Below are positions 1 to 16,696 of a stretch of 18,167 bases of DNA, in pieces. The DNA is taken from contig NHCT01000054.1 in NCBI GenBank assembly GCA_002167605.1, positions 2,229 through 20,395 of the forward strand, in the 5' to 3' direction. The stretch comes from Verrucomicrobia bacterium TMED40 (lineage in GTDB: Bacteria > Verrucomicrobiota > Verrucomicrobiia > Opitutales > Seribacteraceae). A program made the translations under genes and the position numbers. The notes below the pieces were generated by a model. The model was given only the letters and a program-made list of their open reading frames with translations, was not told the origin of the DNA and searched no databases. The stretch's first letter is position 1. The number at the start of each line of letters is the position of its first letter.

Positions 1-2093
1 CCACCGCCACCCATTCCACCATCTGAACCTCCGGTCATTCTCTGGATGGTTCCCTGTGTAACCTCGTAAAATTCAGTTTCCATAGGCTTTCCCTTAAAAG
101 AGCCCCCGGCTTTAGATATGGTCACTGCGGGGCCATCTATGTCAAAACTCCAGTTCACCGCTTGTGTGATGAATTCGATCATTTGACGCAAAGACATAGA
201 ATTCAGGGTAATCGTAACCTGAGGAGGTGGCTCATCGTTATCAGGCAAAACTACGATTTGTACGCCTTTCAAGGCGGGGTCCGATTCAGTAAGGTCAAAT
301 TGGCGAGCTTGTCTCATAAGCTCTGCAGCAACCTCCGGTAGGGGTGTTGCGAAGAATTGAACTCCGGATATTTGAATAAGATCTAGTTTTTCCTCCAGCT
401 TACTGGAACTTTCCTTTACATCTTGAATTTCTTCAACTTGCCTGTCAAAAACCTTTGGTCTTTCCCACTCTCGTTCGATCTCTTCGAGCATTTCTTGTCG
501 AGTCTTTAGATACCCCAAATAACTTTCCTGCTCTTTCATTTGTGAAATTCGCTTTAGCATTTCCTTGGCTTCAAAGTTTTCTGAAAATCTGGTCTCAATT
601 ACACGATAACTCTCGATCGCCCCAGTAAGGTCTCCGTTCACAAATTGCACCTTCGCTCTCATGAGTAATTCTTGCAACTGGGCCTGCTGCTCTTTCCAAT
701 TCGCAGTATATTCTGTTATATCCCGCTGAAAAGGATCCTTCATGTCATCCTCAAGTTTTTCCTCTTCTTTATCAGCAAGCCCAAGCTCTCTTTCAACGGC
801 TTTTGTTCCTCGGGTTTCCTTAAGTCCGGGCCTTCCGTAGGTCAGGGTATCTCCTTGAATGTCTCGATCCTGATAAAAAGAAGTTCTGAATGAATCCAAA
901 TGTTTTTTTGCCCCTTCCCAATCTTTATTTTCTCTTGCATCTTCAGCTTTTGATAAAAATAGGCGGTTTTTCATCAGGGCAGCTTCAAGAATTATCGGCC
1001 AAGTCAGAGTATTAGGTTCGAGAAAGTTTTTTATTTTGAAAAGGATTTCATCAGCTTTATCGTAGTTTTTCTTCTTTATTTCTGCCTTGGCATCATAAAG
1101 CATATTATCGGCGAGTTTGGCTTGTTCCTCGTTCTTTTCCTGTGCCTTCGCAATTTCGGCATCAAAGTCAATTTCTTGACCTGCACCCATTGTATCTGTT
1201 TCCGCTTTTCGACGTGAGTCTTCGATTTTCTTGTACTCCAAGACAAGTTTTTGCACATCGGATACCTGACCTCTAAGCATGGCTTCTCCCATTTTATACC
1301 AAACGACTTGCTGCTTCGCTTTGAAAAGATCACTTATTAAAGCTATCGTTGAGGTGTTAGCGGGTAAGTTGGCGAACGCCTCGTCAATATGGGCCAGAGC
1401 AAGATCATACCTAGCGTTTGCACTTTCATTTCTTGCTTTTAGCAAGAGTCTTTCAGCCTGCCTGGAGTAAAGAATTACCTTGGACTTTTCCTCCGCCATA
1501 AGTTTTTCTAAATCAGGCTTTGCATCATCGATTGGCAAACCCGCCTTGGCCCTAATTTCAGCCAAGTCTTTTTTGGCATTATCCAGCTCTTCTACCAAGC
1601 GACCAACCAGAGAAACATCCTTGGGCATTGCCGCATTCACTTGAACCTCTCTTTGAATTTTACGTTCACTTAATTCAAGAGCCACATTTTCTCGATATCT
1701 TTCCAAAAGCTTACTTGCCAGTGAAAAGTTCTTTTCTTTCATTGCTAAATTAGCACGAGCAAAATAAAGCCTCGTTTCCTCTTTTCGAATTTGCCTTAGG
1801 TAAAAACGGGATGAGTCGGTATCCTCAATTTTTTCCAATGCTTCAGTTGCAAGCTTTTGCGCCTCTGCCAAAGAACCGGCTGAAGACTTCTCTCTGATCT
1901 TCTCCAAAAGAGCCAATAGGTTGGTATCATTACCAATTCCGGATGATACTTTTTGATCATTTGCCTTAAGGATGGTTGGCGGTGTTTCCTGAGAAGGAAT
2001 AATGACGGTAGGTAATTCCACATCCGAAGATGACGCTGAAGAAATTCCAAACGCCAAAAGTAATAAAATACAAAAGACTGGTTTGAAATTCAT
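1..2093 (-). CDS. Secretin, Amuc_1098/PilQ-like outer membrane pore (partial, C-terminus off window)
   Basis: The frame is open from an ATG at 2093 to the left edge (697 codons, no stop), so the pore-forming beta domain lies outside the window. A signal peptide opens it (MNFKPVFCILLLLAFGISSA), followed by a very long charged alpha-helical region, about residues 45-555, with A/L/K/E-rich helical hairpins like TPR repeats. About residues 570-662 (roughly 386-110 in the window) look like an STN/N0 secretin domain: a segment ending QVTITLNSMSLRQMIEFI, then VNWSFDIDGPAVTIS. The chain then reads METEFYEVTQGTIQRM and enters a Gly-rich linker at the edge. It is the last gene of the 7169-to-1 cluster, 165 bp after the PilP-position gene. 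Known: the Amuc_1098 family is the outer membrane pore of the Akkermansia pilus-like system. Inferred: it forms the outer membrane channel for the upstream proteins. I am sure of the reading frame and fairly sure of the family. Confidence 0.85.
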   Translation of the reverse strand, partial: MNFKPVFCILLLLAFGISSASSSDVELPTVIIPSQETPPTILKANDQKVSSGIGNDTNLLALLEKIREKSSAGSLAEAQKLATEALEKIEDTDSSRFYLRQIRKEETRLYFARANLAMKEKNFSLASKLLERYRENVALELSERKIQREVQVNAAMPKDVSLVGRLVEELDNAKKDLAEIRAKAGLPIDDAKPDLEKLMAEEKSKVILYSRQAERLLLKARNESANARYDLALAHIDEAFANLPANTSTIALISDLFKAKQQVVWYKMGEAMLRGQVSDVQKLVLEYKKIEDSRRKAETDTMGAGQEIDFDAEIAKAQEKNEEQAKLADNMLYDAKAEIKKKNYDKADEILFKIKNFLEPNTLTWPIILEAALMKNRLFLSKAEDARENKDWEGAKKHLDSFRTSFYQDRDIQGDTLTYGRPGLKETRGTKAVERELGLADKEEEKLEDDMKDPFQRDITEYTANWKEQQAQLQELLMRAKVQFVNGDLTGAIESYRVIETRFSENFEAKEMLKRISQMKEQESYLGYLKTRQEMLEEIEREWERPKVFDRQVEEIQDVKESSSKLEEKLDLIQISGVQFFATPLPEVAAELMRQARQFDLTESDPALKGVQIVVLPDNDEPPPQVTITLNSMSLRQMIEFITQAVNWSFDIDGPAVTISKAGGSFKGKPMETEFYEVTQGTIQRMTGGSDGGMGGG

Positions 2094-2173
2094 AGGTTGT
2101 GAAATCTTTGTAAACATCAAATGAGGGGCAATTCTAAAAAGAATAGGGTTGTTGATGATTCCATCGAATACTT

Positions 2174-2202
2174 GGGTTTGGTCAACCTTGAAAACAAAAC
2201 CC
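2174..2202. repeat. Short imperfect inverted repeat between PilP-position and secretin genes
   Basis: GGGTTTGGT at 2174-2182 pairs with ACAAAACCC at 2194-2202 apart from one mismatch, leaving an 11-nt loop. It lies in the 165 bp gap, about 57 bp after the stop of the upstream gene. No T-run follows on the minus strand, so it is not a standard terminator; it might be an attenuating hairpin or an mRNA processing or stabilising structure, or chance. A second small palindrome, ATTCT/AGAAT, is at 2131-2144. Confidence 0.25.
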
Positions 2203-2258
2203 ACAGAGGTAAATATTTATGTAAACAGTAATTGCCAGATGACAACACGCTTTCCGTA

Positions 2259-3557
2259 TTAAAGTGGATTGACTGGGGACAATGAAAGTATAATTTTCTG
2301 AGGCGGTTGCGTAATCATACCCTCTTTTGAAATGAGTACGCTTTTGCCTTCAATATCAATCTTCTCTATCTGGTATCTCCTGCTTTCATGCTCAAAAGCA
2401 GTACCATTTTGATCTTCAGAAAATTCAAACTCTTTCATTGGAAGGCCGGGCAGAACAAAACGTAACTTAATGCTGTAATCTCCGGCAAAAACTTCTTTCA
2501 TGAGACTGTTTATTTCAAAGGGGTTAGTATCTAACTTATGATCCCTGACCATTGCCCTTCCTACAAGCATGCTACCACCTGATTTTGTTTTTAATTGTTG
2601 AACTGTGAAGTACTCGATGGAAACTTTTGCGTCAGGATGATTTTTTTCACATTCTACCAAAGATGATTCTCCTGCTTTGCGACCAAGATTTGGCCTGTAT
2701 GTTTTACCCACCTCAAGGCGATTAAAAACATTTTGTTTAGAATTAGGCGATATGAGGGTGTTTAGGTCTTCAAAATATGGGGTGTTTCCGATCCATCTCT
2801 TAAGTACATGAGGATATGGACGTTGAGAGAAATCTATTAATTCGAGCCCGAAAGGTTCTTTTTCGTTTTCTTCAATGGGTTCTTCTGGCAATTTCGCAGT
2901 AAGTCTACCATTCACAAGATAAATAACAGGGGGAGTAAAAGTGTCATAAATCGAAGCGTTCGTATCTTCAGATTTCTTTTGCCATTTTACCCTCTGCGAC
3001 AGATCATCTTGGGGTTTACTAAATTTCTTTGGTTGGTATGTGCTTATGGTTGCCTTTTCTAAATCTATCGAAGTGGCAGAAGGTCCAAGTGAATAGATTC
3101 CGCTCCCACTAATTTTTTCCACTTTTGAAAAGGCAATTGATTTTGTCCCGTCTTCAGCATCGACATTTATGGTGCCTTTTCGGTTTTTCCAACCACTCTT
3201 AATAAATAAGTCTTGGTTGGGGGAGACTCTGCCTTCTATTTTCATCCCGTCATTAAGAACAACCAAGAGTTTCGATCGTTTCTTGAAAGAGGCACTCTCA
3301 ACCACTATTTGCTCAGTTTTTCCAGATTCTAAGGTCGCGAAAATAAAGTTTCCCGGCATAAGCTCAATATTTCCTAAGAAGGTAATTTCCACATTCGATT
3401 TATTTTTTTGAATCTCAAAAAAGCTGTTTCTAGAATAATCCTTTTTGAGATTGTCGTTATCATCTTCGAAAAGAAAATGGACGACGAAGATACCAATCAA
3501 AAGAAACAGTGATAGAGCTAAAATGATTTTTTCGTAATGAGCTTTTAGAATCTTCAT
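2259..3557 (-). CDS. Amuc_1099-like pilus-system protein, occupying the PilP position
   Basis: A 432-residue protein with a single N-terminal membrane anchor (about residues 10-30, IILALSLFLLIGIFVVHFLF) and a periplasmic remainder rich in predicted beta strands. Residues 54-155 look like one beta domain. After a Lys/Pro-rich linker, DTFTPPVIYLVNGRL (about 205-219) and FGLELIDFSQRPYPHVL (236-252) begin a second. The C-terminus (about 377-410, containing RRYQIEKIDIEGKSVLI) reads like the small beta domain that PilP and GspC proteins present to a secretin. Its ATG overlaps the stop of the upstream PilO-type gene in an ATGA at 3554-3557, so the two are translationally coupled. Placement between PilO-like and secretin genes supports a PilP-equivalent role, but PilP is usually an under-200-residue lipoprotein and no lipobox is seen here. 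The functional assignment is inference from synteny. Confidence 0.75.
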   Translation of the reverse strand: MKILKAHYEKIILALSLFLLIGIFVVHFLFEDDNDNLKKDYSRNSFFEIQKNKSNVEITFLGNIELMPGNFIFATLESGKTEQIVVESASFKKRSKLLVVLNDGMKIEGRVSPNQDLFIKSGWKNRKGTINVDAEDGTKSIAFSKVEKISGSGIYSLGPSATSIDLEKATISTYQPKKFSKPQDDLSQRVKWQKKSEDTNASIYDTFTPPVIYLVNGRLTAKLPEEPIEENEKEPFGLELIDFSQRPYPHVLKRWIGNTPYFEDLNTLISPNSKQNVFNRLEVGKTYRPNLGRKAGESSLVECEKNHPDAKVSIEYFTVQQLKTKSGGSMLVGRAMVRDHKLDTNPFEINSLMKEVFAGDYSIKLRFVLPGLPMKEFEFSEDQNGTAFEHESRRYQIEKIDIEGKSVLISKEGMITQPPQKIILSLSPVNPL

Positions 3558-4669
3558 TTCAAAAGAAATTCTTTTGTTTTTCTAACGAGATCTTCATTCC
3601 CCGAATCAATGAGAAATTTATCGAAGATCTCTACATCAATATCTTCCCAAAAAAACTTATTTTCATAGAGTGCTAGTATGCCTTTTCGTGTAGTTTTAAG
3701 GTACTCTATCAGAATAGTAAAATCAGACTTTACATCAGTAACAATTGGTAAAAGTTTCTTTGCACTGTTTTTATCTTCATTACTTTCCCCGAATGTAGGT
3801 GAATTTTCGCTCCCTTGGAAGGAAGAGAATTGAGTATCACCAAGCAATCTTTCCACTCTTAGGTTACGTACGAGAAAAGGAGGCCTGAGTTGATTAATAA
3901 ATAGGCGAGCATGTGAAGTATGTGATCTGAATTTCAGCTCAAAAACGAAACTTTCTAATGCAACATTACTTCTTAGTAAGAAATTATTCTTACCTTCGAG
4001 GTTAATTTTGTCAGAGCCTATGTGTTTGTTGTCAGTTGGACCAACTGCTTCCCTTTTAATTTCCAAAAGAAAAAGGGAGTGTAATTTGTTGGTTGAATTG
4101 CAGAGCAGGCTAACTATCTCTTTAATTATCTTTCCTTGAATACTCAAACTCTTTGATTCATTACTGTCAATGCTGGGCCAGAAACCGTCGTAGGATGAAA
4201 GACCAAACCCATAAGATTTCACTTCCCCCTCAGTACCTCCGGTAAAGCCTGTATCAAATGAGTTCAAGGAGGACGGTAAGTTCAGGTTTGCCACTTCACA
4301 TTGGTTCTTTAGGCTAGTGAAAAGTTTGGTGATTTCAGCATTAACGGATTCAGAAGATTGTTGTTCCCAATTAGAATAATGATTTTCCTTTTCATTAAGG
4401 AGTGTTCCCCAATATATCTGCTGTTCCTTTTCCACCTTGGCAAGATTTTCCAAATCTTTGACGGCAGATTTATAATCTAAATCAAGCGATGAATAAAGTG
4501 AAGTTTCTTCATTAATAGAATCTATTTTTTTGTTTAGCTGAGAAAGTTTAGCCATGGATTCTTTAATTTCTTTTGATGAAGAATAGCTAAGATAAAATAG
4601 CGTACTAAAAACTATTATTAATAAAAGTACTATTAAATTAAACAGTTTATGCTGTTTTATAAAATTCAT
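3554..4669 (-). CDS. Amuc_1100-like PilO-type inner membrane protein
   Basis: A 371-residue protein with an N-terminal transmembrane helix (residues 10-29), a coiled-coil stretch (about 33-120) and a periplasmic alpha/beta domain. Landmarks parallel Amuc_1100 as I remember it: LFTSLKNQCEVANLNLP (117-132), then a helix IIKEIVSLLCNSTNKLHSLF (181-200), then ESFVFELKFRSHTSHARLFI (239-258) leading into the strand FLVRNLRVERL (265-275), and a late strand FTILIEYLKTT (317-327). This is the doubled ferredoxin-like arrangement of PilN/PilO. It is about 50 residues longer than Amuc_1100 (317 residues), mainly because of a tail after residue 328. It starts 1 bp after the PilM-PilN stop and overlaps the next gene by 4 bp. 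Known: Amuc_1100 is the abundant Akkermansia outer-surface protein linked to TLR2 signalling. Any host effect for this homologue is not implied by the sequence. Confidence 0.82.
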   Translation of the reverse strand: MNFIKQHKLFNLIVLLLIIVFSTLFYLSYSSSKEIKESMAKLSQLNKKIDSINEETSLYSSLDLDYKSAVKDLENLAKVEKEQQIYWGTLLNEKENHYSNWEQQSSESVNAEITKLFTSLKNQCEVANLNLPSSLNSFDTGFTGGTEGEVKSYGFGLSSYDGFWPSIDSNESKSLSIQGKIIKEIVSLLCNSTNKLHSLFLLEIKREAVGPTDNKHIGSDKINLEGKNNFLLRSNVALESFVFELKFRSHTSHARLFINQLRPPFLVRNLRVERLLGDTQFSSFQGSENSPTFGESNEDKNSAKKLLPIVTDVKSDFTILIEYLKTTRKGILALYENKFFWEDIDVEIFDKFLIDSGNEDLVRKTKEFLLK

Positions 4670-4670
4670 A

Positions 4671-6443
4671 TTAAAAGTTTAGCGTGAATTCATAAGAAAA
4701 ATGGGTAAAGTAACGATTAAATAAATCTCCCTTCCCATCTATGCTAAATATCTTATCATTTACTTTGGTGATTTGGGGAATATCCTGCAATCGTTGTGTT
4801 AATGCTTGTTGTTTTTTACTATTCAAATCGATGAGTATTTCCCTGAAGCGAGCAGTGTTGTCGTGATCCACCTCATCATATTCCTCTACCTTTACAAGAT
4901 ACCTGCCTGTAAGTTTTAGTTTAAATGTGGGTGTTTGCCTCATTGAGGTTCTTGTGTTTCGATTGTTTGGAGAATTTGCTGTTTCCTGAAGAATGTGAAA
5001 TTCATCATACCATGTATCTTGGACATATTCTTCCGAAATTGTATTTTGTAGATTGTTAATCAGGTTTATAACACTCCAGCAAGAATTCTGAGTTCGGAAA
5101 TACGGTTCGCTTAATGTGAAAACTTCGTAGGTTAATTTATCGATAAAGTTAAAATCTTTTTGTTTTTCTGATATTTCTGATAGTGATTTTTCTTCGTTTT
5201 TTAAAAGATTGTTAGTGTTTTTCTGTTTTACATTTATTGAATCAAGTTCATTTAAATTTGAAAGGTAAGAAGGCAGTGGTAAGAGCGAGATAACAAATGC
5301 TGAAATTGCGATAAAAGGCAGTTTTTTTCGCAAGCCTAAGTGAGATATTTTCGCAGATGGTAATAGATTTAATGTTTTTACAAAATCTTTGTTTTCATCT
5401 GAGAAAAGGTTCGATGCTAAACCTATTGGTTCGCTAAATACGAAAGGCAAAAGGCTTTGCATACCTTCGGGAATACCTTTTCCTAAAGTGAGTGCTTTTA
5501 CTGGATCGAAATAATCGATATCTAGTTGTTGCGTTTGGCTTATATATTCAGGAAGTCTATTTAAAAGCGACCCTCTTCCGGTAAGAAATATTTTTCGTGG
5601 TGACCTTCCCTTTTTTACTCTTTTGTATGTGACTATTGAGCGTGTAATTTCTTGGCTGGTCCGAGCAAGAAATTGTTTTGTGCAAGATTCCATTACTTGA
5701 ATATTGGGATCTTCGGGTGAAAAAACTACATCGCCTGAAAAATAACCTTTCTTGAGTTCCTCTGCTTTGGGGAAACTTATCCCTAAATTATCAGACAAGT
5801 TTTGCGTAAGGGCATTACCTCCTATGGCTATATTTCTAACCAAAAAGCCCGTAGGATTAATAAACAGCAGGTTTGTTGATTTTGCACCTACATTTACGAT
5901 TAATGTTTCGGGAGATGACTGGTCCAATTCTTTCATGGTTGCCTTGAGTGCATTGAAGTCCAGTACGGGTGCTGGGGTTATTTGAATTGGGTTTAGCCCA
6001 ATCCCAACAACCCTTTCGCAAAATGATTCAGCAACCTCAGGCTTAACCGCAAAAGCTAAAATCTCTTGCTCCACCCCATCATCATCAATGACCTGATAAT
6101 CCCAAATTAATTCCGATAGCGGAAACGGCATTTTCTGGGAAAGCTCAAAGGCCACAATCTTAGCTTGTTTTTCAATTTCTACTTTTGGAACCCTAATCGT
6201 TTTGGTTAGCAAAAGACTGCCCGGAAAAATGATTCTCGCGTCTCCCTTGAGCTTCATTTTTTCACCGAGCCTCTCGATACTTTCTGTAACTGAATCTAGC
6301 CACTGAGAATCATTGGAGTAATCGTGGCTCAGGGTTTCCATTTCTGCGTACTCCAACACCGTTGTGTCCCCATCCGAAATGAAAATCCCCCCTGTTATAT
6401 GGGAATTTCCGCAATTTATAATGATTTCTCTTCTCTTAGCCAC
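4671..6443 (-). CDS. pilM: Amuc_1101-like PilM-PilN fusion (actin-like ATPase fold plus membrane half)
   Basis: A 590-residue protein. Residues 1-355 are the PilM/FtsA-like actin fold: TLIVNVGAKSTNLLFI (180-195, phosphate-2 region), FLVRNIAIGGNALTQNL (200-216), then GISFPKAEELK (221-231), and the adenosine-motif region KIFLTGRGSLLNRLPEYI (284-301). Residues 356-362 read TLNLLPS, the signature PilN uses to dock onto PilM, followed by a basic stretch and a transmembrane helix (375-393), a coiled coil (about 395-432) and a PilN-like periplasmic domain to residue 590. The actin half is therefore cytoplasmic and the C-terminal half periplasmic. Odd: Asn10 and Asn184 occupy the nucleotide-binding positions usually held by an acidic residue. 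The gene is preceded by the Amuc_1102-like gene (54 bp gap) and followed 1 bp later by the PilO-type gene. Fusion and family are well supported; loss of ATPase activity is only a possibility. Confidence 0.88.
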   Translation of the reverse strand: MAKRREIIINCGNSHITGGIFISDGDTTVLEYAEMETLSHDYSNDSQWLDSVTESIERLGEKMKLKGDARIIFPGSLLLTKTIRVPKVEIEKQAKIVAFELSQKMPFPLSELIWDYQVIDDDGVEQEILAFAVKPEVAESFCERVVGIGLNPIQITPAPVLDFNALKATMKELDQSSPETLIVNVGAKSTNLLFINPTGFLVRNIAIGGNALTQNLSDNLGISFPKAEELKKGYFSGDVVFSPEDPNIQVMESCTKQFLARTSQEITRSIVTYKRVKKGRSPRKIFLTGRGSLLNRLPEYISQTQQLDIDYFDPVKALTLGKGIPEGMQSLLPFVFSEPIGLASNLFSDENKDFVKTLNLLPSAKISHLGLRKKLPFIAISAFVISLLPLPSYLSNLNELDSINVKQKNTNNLLKNEEKSLSEISEKQKDFNFIDKLTYEVFTLSEPYFRTQNSCWSVINLINNLQNTISEEYVQDTWYDEFHILQETANSPNNRNTRTSMRQTPTFKLKLTGRYLVKVEEYDEVDHDNTARFREILIDLNSKKQQALTQRLQDIPQITKVNDKIFSIDGKGDLFNRYFTHFSYEFTLNF

Positions 6444-6497
6444 TGATAAATGTCATTTCATTGAGCAAAGGTATCTTTATGGATATCAGTTATTAAC

Positions 6498-7169
6498 CTA
6501 ATTATCGGTTAGTTTGACCGGGCCCGTTCCATCAAGATAGTTTATGCTGACCGCATGAGCAGGTATGAGGACTCCATTGTTTCTTTCGCTATTGGCTTTT
6601 GCCTGCTCTTTGAACTTTTCTAGGATTTCTTCATCACGGTATTTTTCGAAAAATATTGAGTTGCTCATTTCGAAGGTGTTCCCATCTGAAGTAATTTCTA
6701 CTGCATATCCAATCAGATTAACATATCCGGTTAGGAATCCATCTCTTTCAGCAACCAATGTAGGAAATAAAAAGAATGCGTTTTTGGTAGCCCTGTCGAT
6801 CTCCACCGTGGTGAATTCCACCTCTGAACTGTAATATTGATAATATTGAGCGTCTGTGAGGTTTTGGGATCGAAGCAACTTCTTTTTGAACTCATTGCTA
6901 AAGCAGAGGTATACCTTCACTTTGAGATTATCCAAATATTCCGGGTTGTAGGCAGTATCCACCGAGGTGGGCCGGCTTGCAGAACCACCCGCCAATTTTG
7001 GGTGGGCCACCATATTGAAAGGCACAGTCACTTTTAACCACATATCCGAATCCTTCACCACTGTTACCTTGTTAGCCATCTTTACAATTTGATCTTCGAC
7101 CGCGCTGGAGGTGGAAAATGCAAAAAGGATGGTAATAAGCAGAAGGAAATGATAGCAGGTCTTTTTCAT
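6498..7169 (-). CDS. Amuc_1102-like secreted pilus-system protein
   Basis: A 223-residue protein with a clear Sec signal peptide (KKTC at the N-terminus, hydrophobic core 7-19, cleavage likely after SSA at residue 23). The mature part alternates short strands, for example DMWLKVTVPFNMVAH (42-56) and LDNLKVKVYLCFS (79-91), and later AFFLFPTLVAERDG (131-144) and LTGYVNLIGYAVEI (146-159), then a charged helix (about 175-195). This fits the immunoglobulin-like fold reported for Amuc_1102, although I cannot align it residue by residue. It is first in the minus-strand cluster, 54 bp ahead of PilM-PilN, the same position as in Akkermansia. No type III or class II pilin cleavage motif is visible, so it is probably not a canonical type IV pilin. 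The 73 bp divergent gap to the NUDIX gene must hold its promoter; no convincing -35/-10 pair or Shine-Dalgarno sequence was found. Confidence 0.72.
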   Translation of the reverse strand: MKKTCYHFLLLITILFAFSTSSAVEDQIVKMANKVTVVKDSDMWLKVTVPFNMVAHPKLAGGSASRPTSVDTAYNPEYLDNLKVKVYLCFSNEFKKKLLRSQNLTDAQYYQYYSSEVEFTTVEIDRATKNAFFLFPTLVAERDGFLTGYVNLIGYAVEITSDGNTFEMSNSIFFEKYRDEEILEKFKEQAKANSERNNGVLIPAHAVSINYLDGTGPVKLTDN

Positions 7170-7242: not shown

Positions 7243-7728
7243 ATGCACCTAAAGTTATCTTGCTTATTGTTCATAAAACGCAAAGACGGCAAAATCCTTT
7301 TGCTAAAGCGTAATAAATCGCCAAATAAGGGCTTGTGGAGTCCACCCGGAGGTAAGTTTGATCTCTCTTCTGGCGAATCCCCTTTCGAATGTGCAAAAAG
7401 AGAGGCTTTGGAGGAAACCGGTTTGATTCTTGAAGATAATGACCTTAGAATCTTCGGCTATGTTTCCGAAAAAAATTACCAAAACTCGGGTCATTGGCTG
7501 ATGTTTCTATTCGAGTGCAGAAAGTTCATTGAAAATACTCCGAAATGTTTTGATGAGGGATCCTTTGCCTTTTTCAACCGCTTGGAAATAGATTCTCTTT
7601 CGATACCCCCAACCGATCATGAGTTCGTTTGGCCGTTTTACGACAAGAAAGAACTTGGTTTTTGGGGATTACGAGCAGATTGTTCTGAATCAACACCTAA
7701 AATAAAGATTGAAGCTTCGCCTTCTTAA
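7243..7728 (+). CDS. NUDIX hydrolase
   Basis: A 161-residue protein with a NUDIX domain from about residue 6. The NUDIX box is recognisable at GGKFDLSSGESPFECAK followed by REALEETGL, which gives the E-x7-REUxEExGU part exactly, with the metal-binding Glu pair in EET. The spacing between the first Gly and the next Glu is two residues longer than the classical Gx5E, because of the inserted DLSS turn. NUDIX enzymes cleave nucleoside diphosphates linked to another group; the substrate here cannot be told. The start is fixed by a TAA immediately before the ATG in the same frame. The stop is 29 bp from the pyruvate dehydrogenase E1 alpha gene on the same strand, so the genes are probably co-transcribed. 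No Shine-Dalgarno sequence is evident. Confidence 0.85.
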   Translation: MHLKLSCLLFIKRKDGKILLLKRNKSPNKGLWSPPGGKFDLSSGESPFECAKREALEETGLILEDNDLRIFGYVSEKNYQNSGHWLMFLFECRKFIENTPKCFDEGSFAFFNRLEIDSLSIPPTDHEFVWPFYDKKELGFWGLRADCSESTPKIKIEASPS

Positions 7729-14760: not shown

Positions 14761-15114
14761 ATGTTTCAAGTAACATTTTCAGAACAAAGCCTAGAAGTGC
14801 TCAGTTCCCTACCTCAAGTTGAGCAACTCGAATTGATCGAACGCTTAAGTTCTCTTTCCAATAGCATTCTTTCTGGTTCAGCTAACAACATTGGCCGGTT
14901 CCAAAGGAAGGGCAAATTGTTTTACAGGCTTAGGGTTGATGGCCTGAGGGTTTACTTTGAAAAGATAGATATCTCTCTTCATTGCCACTTTATGCTTCCT
15001 AAAAACTCACTCAATGATTTTCTTTTTCGATGCAAAATGCCTGCTTCAGATGAAGCGGTGCTCGAAGAACACCAAAGTTTTTGGGATTACTTAGAGTCAC
15101 TCACCAAAAATTAA
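14761..15114 (+). CDS. RelE/ParE-superfamily protein without a visible antitoxin
   Basis: A 117-residue protein whose first 85 residues follow the RelE/ParE outline: FQVTFSEQSLEVLSSLP, a helix pair with LELIERLSSLSNSIL, then GRFQRKGKLFYRLRVDGLRV (45-64) like the yRLRvgdyRVyy strand pair of RelE toxins, and a final strand (HCHFMLPKN). A C-terminal tail of about 30 residues (KMPASDEAVLEEHQSFWDYL and on) goes beyond the usual fold. RelE toxins cut mRNA on the ribosome and ParE toxins poison gyrase; which, if either, applies cannot be told. No antitoxin-sized gene precedes it (118 bp gap to the divergent kdsD) or follows it (252 bp to dnaN). It may be a domesticated, non-toxic member. The start ATG has no Shine-Dalgarno sequence, only a pyrimidine-rich leader. 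Confidence 0.65.
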   Translation: MFQVTFSEQSLEVLSSLPQVEQLELIERLSSLSNSILSGSANNIGRFQRKGKLFYRLRVDGLRVYFEKIDISLHCHFMLPKNSLNDFLFRCKMPASDEAVLEEHQSFWDYLESLTKN

Positions 15115-15366: not shown

Positions 15367-16506
15367 ATGAAATTTAAAATAAATCGTGATCATTTCAGCT
15401 CTGGCTTACAGTTTGTGACAAGCGTGGTTGGAGCAAGGAAAACCATGCCCATACTGCAAAATGTTCTCATTGAAGCAAGCGGATCAAATATACACCTAAC
15501 TACCACCAACCTGGATTTAGGTGCCAGGTGTACCGTAAAAGCTGAAGTTGAAGAAGGGGGCTCTGTAACCTTACCTGTCAAAGAATTAGGTCGAATAATA
15601 AGAGAATTGGCTGACATGGAGGTCAGTGTAGAAACCTCAGAAACACCAAAGGCGACCATAAGTACTCGCGGTTCGGTATTCAATGTCATTGGTATGGATA
15701 GTAAAGAATTTCCACCACTCCCAGAATTAGAGGAACGAAAGAATTTTACCATAAAGAGAAGTGAGTTGATTTCGATGTTAAAGAGCGTTTCGTACGCTCA
15801 ATCCGTAAATGAAGAAAGGTATATGCTCAAAGGTGTGTTTTTTCAGTTTGATAAGGAAAAGCTTTCGCTTGTTGCCACAGACGGAAGAAGATTAGCAGTA
15901 ACACAAAAATCAATCAATGCTACCGAGGAAGAACAGGGGGAGTTTATTCTACCATCTCTTACGGTTTCCGAAATAGAAAAAATGCCAGACATAGGCGAAA
16001 CCGTCCGGTTAGCTTTTACTGACCGCCAAGTTGCTTTTCAATTAGATGTAAGCGAGGGGAAGGACGAAAACCATGGTTTTATAGAAAACATTTATTTGGT
16101 TTCAAAAGTGGTGGAGGGGAAGTACCCCAATTATAAGCAAGTCATTCCCAGAGACGATTTTAATGTCGCAGAGGTAGAGCGTGAACTCATGCAGGAGTGC
16201 GTGCATAGAGCAGCACTGGTATCGGATGAAAAAATCACCTTAAGAATTAAACCCAAAGAAATGGAGATAACGGGGCAAAGCACATTGGGAGACGCCTGCG
16301 AATCTATGAACATATCTTATGTTGGTGAAGAAACTACGGTTTCCTTTAATCCACGTTTTATATTAGATCCTCTACGATACATATCGCAAGATAAGTTAAA
16401 ATTAGAATTTAGAGACGATATGAGTCCAGGTGTCTTTAGGGTGCTGGAATCAGAAAAATCAGATGTATCTATTCTTTGTGTGGTTATGCCCATTCGGACA
16501 GATTAA
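15367..16506 (+). CDS. dnaN: DNA polymerase III sliding clamp, beta subunit
   Basis: A 379-residue protein of normal length for the beta clamp, which encircles DNA and tethers polymerase III. All three clamp domains are recognisable: the first has MPILQNVLIEASGSNIHLTT and TNLDLGARC, the second starts near FTIKRSELISMLKSVSYAQS (positions about 126-145) and contains LVATDGRRLAVTQKS, and the third ends with SILCVVMPIRTD, the conserved MP-R C-terminus. It stands alone: neither dnaA nor recF is next to it, and it follows the RelE-like gene after 252 bp. The ATG is preceded by AAAAAGATCATCAAA, a weak Shine-Dalgarno at best. No terminator hairpin is obvious after its stop. Confidence 0.97.
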   Translation: MKFKINRDHFSSGLQFVTSVVGARKTMPILQNVLIEASGSNIHLTTTNLDLGARCTVKAEVEEGGSVTLPVKELGRIIRELADMEVSVETSETPKATISTRGSVFNVIGMDSKEFPPLPELEERKNFTIKRSELISMLKSVSYAQSVNEERYMLKGVFFQFDKEKLSLVATDGRRLAVTQKSINATEEEQGEFILPSLTVSEIEKMPDIGETVRLAFTDRQVAFQLDVSEGKDENHGFIENIYLVSKVVEGKYPNYKQVIPRDDFNVAEVERELMQECVHRAALVSDEKITLRIKPKEMEITGQSTLGDACESMNISYVGEETTVSFNPRFILDPLRYISQDKLKLEFRDDMSPGVFRVLESEKSDVSILCVVMPIRTD

Positions 16507-16528: not shown

Positions 16529-16696
16529 AAGCATGCATATACCCAGTGCAGGCAGAAAAGATGCACTAGAAATGTGATACTCATTAGTACAGGTATGCCG
16601 GTTGTAAGGGAAAAAGTTCAGGCAAAAAACTTTGCAACTAAAATACAACCTAATAAATTCATGGAAAAAGTTTTAGCGAAAGCTTCACTTAATTAA
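16529..16696 (+). pseudogene. Possible remnant of a response-regulator receiver domain
   Basis: In the 221 bp between dnaN and the thioredoxin-fold gene, one frame open from 16529 to the TAA at 16694-16696 ends in a pattern like the last part of a CheY-type receiver: a hydrophobic strand VILISTGM (from the GTG at 16574), then VQAKNFATKIQPNKFMEKVL resembling the A..F..KP....L..V close of a receiver. A second frame just upstream (16533-16577) reads AGRKDALEM, reminiscent of the helix that follows the G/A-KEAL pattern. Joining them needs a frameshift and a large deletion. The phosphoacceptor Asp region is absent. It could equally be a chance 40-residue ORF starting at the GTG at 16574 or the ATG at 16595. 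Very uncertain. Confidence 0.2.

Follow-up and report, generated by a model that had tools for sequence, protein, structure and literature searches.

Amuc_1100 of Akkermansia muciniphila is studied as a probiotic agent, and one report describes it as an outer-membrane pili-like protein (PMC5332112). A homologous cluster outside Akkermansia raises the question of whether the locus encoding this protein arose in the gut or belongs to older machinery. Here, the question is addressed with an 18,167-nt stretch of DNA (the window) from Verrucomicrobia bacterium TMED40, a member of the Opitutales and an environmental relative of Akkermansia. The five-gene cluster at its left end looks like an old component of type IV pilus machinery and not like something invented in the gut; this had been proposed from the letters of the window (the sequence-only reading), and the proposal holds in the main, given the recurrence of the gene order described below.

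The ORF list confirmed the five minus-strand genes that had been claimed (6498-7169, 4671-6443, 3554-4669, 2259-3557, and 3-2204), which are named here after their Akkermansia counterparts. The first gene encodes a 1102-type protein of 223 residues (6498..7169) with, on inspection, an apparent cleavable signal peptide, and is followed by a 590-residue 1101-type gene with a GTG start (4671..6443). Next are the Amuc_1100-like 1100-type gene in the PilO position (3554..4669; 371 residues, N-terminal anchor by inspection) and the 1099-type gene in the PilP position (2259..3557; 432 residues, also with an N-terminal anchor). The last gene, encoding a 1098-type PilQ-like secretin, runs off the left end of the window, such that 1..2204 covers its N-terminal 734 residues; the full-length protein has 1,206 residues (L005:812-4432). 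By inspection, its start may lie closer to 2093. The two tight junctions noted earlier were also found, with the 1100- and 1099-type ORFs overlapping by 4 bp (3554-3557) and a single base pair (position 4670) separating 1101 from 1100. As the sequence-only reading had stated, homologous 1102-1101-1100-1099-1098 genes lie on one strand in the same order as in Akkermansia muciniphila Amuc_1098-Amuc_1102 (MUL2 plus PilQ), with a PilM-type 1101 and a secretin; the window thus carries an Amuc_1098-1102-type locus in the broader sense.

The same reading had also mapped the cluster one-to-one onto pilM-pilN-pilO-pilP-pilQ, and this mapping fails, since the 590-residue gene comprises both PilM and PilN and the 223-residue gene matches no PilM model. 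The 1101 protein scores 67.3 bits against Pfam PilM_2 (cut-off 27) and 88.5 bits against TIGR01175 pilM (cut-off 133). In PDB searches, a single 1101 profile matched both Myxococcus PilM (3jc8_Ma, E 3.2e-58) and Myxococcus PilN (3jc8_Na, E 1.3e-8; profile positions 350-543); the Pfam PilN model matched 1 of 60 1101 members only (E 0.03). In the AlphaFold2 (AF2) model of this single protein (pLDDT 90), an actin-like PilM domain (residues 1-347; 5403..6443) is followed by a probable membrane-spanning helix (residues 363-387; 5283..5357), a long helix (residues 389-470), and a PilN-type periplasmic domain of strand-strand-helix-strand-strand order (residues 477-588; 4680..5015), all on the minus strand. 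Secondary structure here is that of the model, and the membrane role of the shorter helix is suggested by its sequence. The actin-like PilM of a type IVa pilus is present in 1101 by Pfam, PDB profile, and fold, and PilN is present by the 3jc8_Na match and the last domain of the model. Together, the PilM and PilN matches from one profile, the AF2 model, and the fold of the PilM part support a pilus reading.

For 1100, 1099, and 1102, kinship with the Akkermansia proteins was clearer than kinship with Pil proteins. Using unrelated protein pairs as controls, hhalign comparison with Akkermansia-type profiles gave 99.8% (E 5.5e-28) for 1100, 98.4% (E 4.6e-15) for 1099, and 97.5% (E 7.8e-12) for 1102; the proposed likeness of the 371- and 432-residue proteins to Amuc_1100 and Amuc_1099 is thereby borne out. 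Profiles built from Opitutales only had Amuc_1100 (6laf, E 1.9e-5; profile A7) and Amuc_1102 (7dsz, E 0.0018; profile A8) as their top PDB matches. With the 1102 protein, Pfam gave no match up to E = 1 and NCBIfam gave only a 12.5-bit one, with no pilMNOPQ counterpart in either search. PilO and PilP were likewise absent from the Pfam and PDB profile matches of 1100 and 1099, respectively. For these two, homology to the Akkermansia-type proteins is found, and the PilO and PilP identities are putative, suggested by gene position, with topology also fitting PilO in the case of 1100. The 1099 protein (AF2 pLDDT 89.4) is longer than the 337-residue counterpart in the Akkermansia-like locus L124, and residues 46-176 are probably an extra domain relative to such shorter relatives; the secretin likewise has 1,206 residues here and 907 there. 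That 1098 is a secretin is clear from the full protein (Pfam Secretin, 111.4 bits); a PilQ-like secretin is present in the cluster, with its secretin domain lying beyond the window. Scores against the Amuc equivalog families of NCBIfam were low for 1101 (NF045709, 236.9 bits; cut-off 650), 1100 (NF038287, 26.4 bits, E 4.1e-6; cut-off 180), and the 1098 fragment (NF042912, 80.8 bits; cut-off 750), and the window proteins are therefore homologues outside the Amuc_1098/1100/1101 families, not members. Compared with the type IVa PilMNOPQ systems of Myxococcus, Thermus, and Pseudomonas, the locus differs in its fused PilM and PilN, its extra first gene, and the lack of matches of 1100 and 1099 to the PilO/PilP models used.

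How widely is this arrangement shared? Strong 1101 matches (E <= 1e-30, counted by hand) were present in 214 of 240 genomes drawn from the phylum and in 84 of 135 drawn from the window's own order, the two draws having genomes in common. The claim of an alignment and secretin complex conserved across Verrucomicrobiota holds in the main, though strong 1101 is less frequent in the order to which the window belongs. Synteny was assessed in 80 named loci retrieved with the 1101 alignment alone, of which 79 had a recognised 1101 ORF, using labelling profiles iterated on the same ORF set. All five genes were in order in 61 of the 79, and 1101-1100-1099-1098 in 69; the 18 shorter loci reflected contig ends (13), an unrecognised 1102 (4), or both (1). 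In 10 extra loci, chosen from 10 further families outside the profile-building set, 1100 and 1099 were recognised in all and 1102 in eight. Both the 1101 fusion and a 1102 gene at the head of the cluster thus recur across the phylum. Much of this conservation is already in print: a 2026 paper reports it for Verrucomicrobiales (PMC13174399), and wider PilQ conservation was published in 2016 (PMC4960237). None of the papers searched was found to describe the PilM-PilN fusion, the extension to Opitutales, or a co-occurrence test.

This co-occurrence test concerned the PilC/GspF platform family (PF00482). When only genomes of at least 90% completeness are considered, PF00482 accompanied strong 1101 in 213/213 cases of the phylum draw and 83/83 of the order draw, and none of the seven such phylum-draw genomes devoid of PF00482 had strong 1101 (Fisher p 8e-8, uncorrected for ancestry, the seven representing two families). 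Where PilT was searched for as well, it nearly always accompanied strong 1101. The converse fails: of the genomes lacking strong 1101, 19 of the 26 in the phylum draw and 49 of the 51 in the order draw have PF00482, and the link is one-way. In sister genus g2, four of five genomes had weak 1101 matches only, yet carried PF00482 and PilT, and one same-genus genome (G093) had 1098-type secretin matches and no 1101 match; gaps in the assemblies, or a different alignment set, may account for both. G095 and G206 likewise have PilC and PilT and no strong 1101. The window's own draft genome (84% complete) has no PilB, PilC, or PilT above cut-off. This is probably assembly loss, because PilB/GspE-type (PF00437), PilC/GspF-type (PF00482), and PilT-type genes (the last above cut-off) occur in 8/8 same-genus genomes. 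Motor and platform proteins score equally as PilB/GspE and as PilC/GspF. All 20 genomes of group g70, termed Akkermansia-like because scores lie over or near the Amuc_1101 cut-off and the 1100 protein of L124 reads nearly like the Amuc_1100 PDB sequence, contain PilT; each has two PF00482 matches, which fits a single PilC. A second secretin is also present in Akkermansia-like genomes.

Judged by its genes, the cluster most plausibly specifies that portion of a type IVa-type pilus which spans the envelope (probability about 0.78). In this machine, 1101, 1100, and 1099 would form a periplasmic alignment cage coupling the cytoplasmic motors PilB and PilT and the platform PilC, all presumably encoded away from the cluster, to a secretin ring through which the pilus would cross the outer membrane; 1102 may serve as a periplasmic accessory subunit.

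Type II secretion is the likeliest of the rivals. GspL consists of an actin-like domain fused to a periplasmic domain, much as 1101 does, and the succession of anchored proteins and a secretin likewise recalls GspL-GspM-GspC-GspD; the machine would then secrete enzymes with a short pseudopilus. Two loci from other families have pseudopilin genes upstream, 73 bp from the cluster in L129 (H-I-J-K-like order) and about 0.9 kb from it in L135 (G-H-I-J-K-like order); such neighbours also speak for the pilus reading. Every equivalog score falls under cut-off, Pfam GspH reaches 22.1 (cut-off 21), and the K-position protein of L129 has no match. A GspG-type pseudopilin also adjoins PilC in the Akkermansia-like locus L125 (Pfam T2SSG 25.1, cut-off 21). 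No pseudopilin gene was seen on inspection of the window ORFs and L005. Against this rival, a same-genus genome (G041) has its own separate type II locus (L159), with best matches, all under NCBIfam cut-offs, to GspG (49.3 bits), GspK (77.5), GspM (20.1), GspD over PilQ (220.1 vs 107.2), GspE over PilB (527.4 vs 510.6), and GspF over PilC (248.3 vs 158.6); its L, C, H, and J were named from position. Moreover, GspG lies ~6 kb from a ~780-residue secretin in at least five of eight same-genus genomes, and PilT, present in the genus, exceeds cut-off in 62 of 66 genomes tested. Finally, the 1101 profile that finds PilM and PilN in the PDB finds no GspL at E <= 0.01, and T2SSL matches five of 60 1101 members (best E 0.021), making a type II assignment unlikely.

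A motorless glycan-import channel, in which secretin and cage would act without pilus motors, would suit both the term mucin utilisation locus, used for the Akkermansia cluster in PMC13174399, and the draft genome of the window, where T2SSF is unmatched and T2SSE appears as a 21.7-bit fragment only. The motor and platform families in every same-genus genome, and the PF00482 found wherever a searched genome at least 90% complete has strong 1101, make such a channel highly improbable. Nor is it probable that an ordinary pilMNOPQ operon resembles the Amuc cluster through shared pilus ancestry only. The equivalog scores far under cut-off point that way, whereas 1100, 1099, and 1102 match Akkermansia-type profiles, the first two match no PilO/PilP model, and the fused 1101 with its leading 1102 recurs phylum-wide. 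The sequence-only reading had named a separate pilMNOPQ set in the same genome as evidence against itself; the 1101/PilM search of this 84% complete genome found no second ordinary PilM. It returned two Amuc-type matches, one probably on a mis-binned contig, and a partial 23.9-bit match in a 409-residue frame, which was rejected as a second PilM and is probably FtsA.

The type IVa-type pilus reading bears directly on Amuc_1100. The cluster is ordinary in kind, yet the placing of 1100 in the putative alignment cage argues for Amuc_1100 as an inner-membrane-anchored assembly subunit, with host activity most likely a secondary property. A position in an old alignment complex, between the PilM-PilN fusion and 1099/secretin, predicts its cell location, its partners, and the effect of its loss on pili, makes its route to host receptors directly testable, and suggests free-living relatives as non-host controls. 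A bolder joint reading, offered tentatively and itself rather doubtful, would combine one inherited Verrucomicrobiota pilus subtype (fused PilM-PilN, extra 1102) with an Amuc_1100 that acts in assembly as a PilO-type protein of the inner membrane and at no time as a surface pilin, its host effects being those of released protein. In the window's branch, a dedicated, N-anchored C-type-lectin plus reprolysin-like metalloprotease encoded right after the secretin would then be displayed by the same machine as an adhesive, glycoprotein-cutting tip or surface partner.

The flanks of the cluster differ between the two lineages: NUDIX-pdh and the lectin-protease-like gene here, coaE-like and rho-like genes in the Akkermansia cluster. 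The NUDIX-type ORF, named by inspection, lies divergently beside the cluster on the plus strand (7243..7728). This flank is partly conserved, with a divergent, adjacent homologue in 34 of the 65 named loci in which 1102 is recognised and the upstream sequence extends for 700 bp or more.

As the sequence-only reading had described, the left end of the window carries five minus-strand genes, all present as ORFs and named here after their Akkermansia homologues Amuc_1102 to Amuc_1098: 1102 (6498-7169), 1101 (4671-6443), 1100 (3554-4669), 1099 (2259-3557), and the 1098 secretin (3-2204), which runs past the window edge to position 812 of locus L005 (L005:812). NUDIX-type and pyruvate-dehydrogenase-type genes, named by inspection, adjoin the cluster on the opposite (plus) strand. 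The source genome, G000, is a draft assembly of 2.49 Mb in 66 contigs (84.4% complete), and the window covers positions 2229-20395 of its contig C55. Among the relatives found by 1101 alignment, which carry the names Opitutales, Opitutia, Opitutae, Puniceicoccaceae, or just Verrucomicrobia, Opitutia bacterium UBA3151 is nearest (57% identity). A second full five-gene locus, accompanied by a NUDIX gene and the beginning of one resembling pdhA, was observed on contig C8 of the same assembly (L006; 11,148 bases); it lies nearer to another clade, and the contig is probably mis-binned. Elsewhere in the window, a RelE/ParE-like protein of 117 residues (by inspection) is encoded at 14761-15114, with a dnaN-like gene as its neighbour (15367-16506); in locus L029, a gene with a similar start lies at 16695.

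The homology of the cluster to a known complex is real and well supported. In profile-profile comparisons with Akkermansia-type profiles, 1100 aligned nearly end to end (99.8%, E 5.5e-28), and matches were also obtained for 1099 (98.4%, E 4.6e-15) and 1102 (97.5%, E 7.8e-12); two unrelated control pairs gave 0.3% and 0.9%. The top PDB match of an Opitutales-only 1100 profile was Amuc_1100 (6laf; E 1.9e-5), and that of 1102 was 7dsz (E 0.0018). The proposed kinship of 1100 and 1099 with Amuc_1100 and Amuc_1099 was thereby upheld, but neither protein matched any of the PilO or PilP models searched; these two names therefore rest on position and topology. In the window's branch, 1099 has 432 residues and contains a stretch additional to its shorter relatives: alignment A12 includes 40 proteins from the Opitutales side, and 27 of them are 286-337 residues long.

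The gene order was predicted to recur across Verrucomicrobiota, and the survey largely agreed. A recognisable 1101 ORF was found in 79 of 80 named loci; 69 of these 79 have the order 1101-1100-1099-1098, and all five genes stand in order in 61, with median intergenic gaps of 30, 3, 9, and 26 bp. Hand counts at E <= 1e-30 placed a strong 1101 in 214/240 genomes of the phylum and 84/135 of the window's own order. Ten loci from ten further families (L126-L135), chosen among genomes with a 1101 match and absent from all profiles, each contain recognisable 1100 and 1099 and a downstream secretin, with 1102 recognised in eight (missed in L127 and L128). Verrucomicrobiales-type loci have the identical order, 1102 going unrecognised in one of them (L155). 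Two or three tandem 1098-type secretin genes end the cluster in L126, L127, L130, L131, L132, and L157, which represent several families. Downstream of several Verrucomicrobiales-type clusters (L124, L136, L137, L152, L154) lies a coaE-like gene, in most cases together with a rho-like one, both named by inspection. In the window's genus, a similar pair, again by inspection, lies upstream of the ATPase-ATPase-PilC cluster (L024, L027). This shared pair hints that the two clusters descend from one ancestral pilus locus.

In published work, Amuc_1098 was named PilQ, with homologues in V. spinosum, Haloferula, and Lentisphaera (PMC4960237), and the cluster and the TLR2 activity of Amuc_1100 were described (PMC5332112). 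More recently, 1102 and 1101 were reported as MUL2A and MUL2B, with conserved synteny in 266/352 non-muciniphila Akkermansiaceae genomes; the locus was often kept in other Verrucomicrobiales families, less so in Chthoniobacterales, and was not detected in Methylacidiphilales (PMC13174399). In that paper, 1101 is termed a PilM protein, and the label uncharacterised is given to 1099 and 1100; a review mentions the mucin loci (PMC12418764). Neither a PilM-PilN fusion in 1101 nor the five-gene cluster in Opitutales was found in the portions of open-licence PMC papers searched. The anatomy of the complex is corrected here, and its spread is wider than those portions report.

Most likely, the cluster serves a type IVa-type pilus as its alignment complex and outer-membrane gate, as indicated by co-occurrence with platform and PilT families and by a separate type II locus in a same-genus genome (G041). 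The platform family PF00482 was present in all 213 phylum genomes at least 90% complete with strong 1101. It was absent from seven phylum genomes, none with strong 1101, and was still present in 19 of the 26 lacking strong 1101 (Fisher p 8e-8). These seven belong to only two families (G141, G172, G182, G199, and G261; G167 and G185), so few evolutionary events underlie this p value. Within the window's order, PF00482 accompanied strong 1101 in 83/83 genomes at least 90% complete and occurred in 49/51 without strong 1101. Thus, 1101 needs the platform, but the platform is often present where no 1101 is recognised. PilT exceeded the cut-off in 62/66 genomes, the exceptions being G000 and G167, together with G141 and G172 as judged by E-value; of the seven genomes above that lack PF00482, the three checked (G141, G172, G167) thus apparently had no PilT over the cut-off. 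Motors were not found in the 84.4% complete G000 draft; T2SSE, T2SSF, and PilT matches exceeded the cut-off in 8/8 same-genus genomes.

The main rival, type II secretion, draws on the fact that motors and platform score equally for both systems. In addition, type II-flavoured pseudopilin genes in (G-)H-I-J-K-like order lie upstream of 1102-1101-1100-1099-1098 in L129 (3199-7053) and L135 (304-6797), and another adjoins PilC in the Akkermansia-like locus L125, all under equivalog cut-offs. The separate type II locus of G041 argues that the cluster in the window's genus is probably no part of such a system. Strong 1101 was found in 7/8 other same-genus genomes and 1/5 of sister genus g2. Also counting against the pilus reading, it is absent from G093 (same genus; without any 1101) and G065, G076, G101, and G117 (g2) despite platform and PilT families; an assembly gap, gene loss, or a different alignment set may account for these cases. 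Furthermore, a second secretin is present in Akkermansia-like genomes; the one in L160 (7400-9925) is an 841-residue TPR-plus-secretin protein away from the pilus cluster. Hence 1098 is not their sole gate. In G000, contig C14 encodes a 693-residue secretin (L007:7760-9841) next to a gene for an MscS-like channel (by inspection); the 19 kb examined around it showed no secretion genes.

The proposed type IVa-type pilus may have a surface partner or substrate: in the window's branch, the secretin gene is directly followed by one for an N-anchored protein. The C-type lectin family Lectin_C exceeded its Pfam cut-off in 5/6 such proteins tested, and reprolysin-like metalloprotease models matched 5/5, exceeding the cut-off in two. 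Examples are L041:15387-19351, L074:17902-21057, and, left of the window, L005:1-474, where the contig reaches no further than residue 158 of the protein and the assignment is by position and appearance. Of 24 loci that have a long 1099 and a 1098, 13 carry a homologue of the L041 protein after 1098; these 13 represent 11 genomes (L026/L036 and L028/L074 being the same). Among the 11 lacking one, six have no same-strand ORF after 1098 in the stretch examined, L025 and the window have only unmatched fragments, and L127, L130, and L133, which come from other families, have different genes there.
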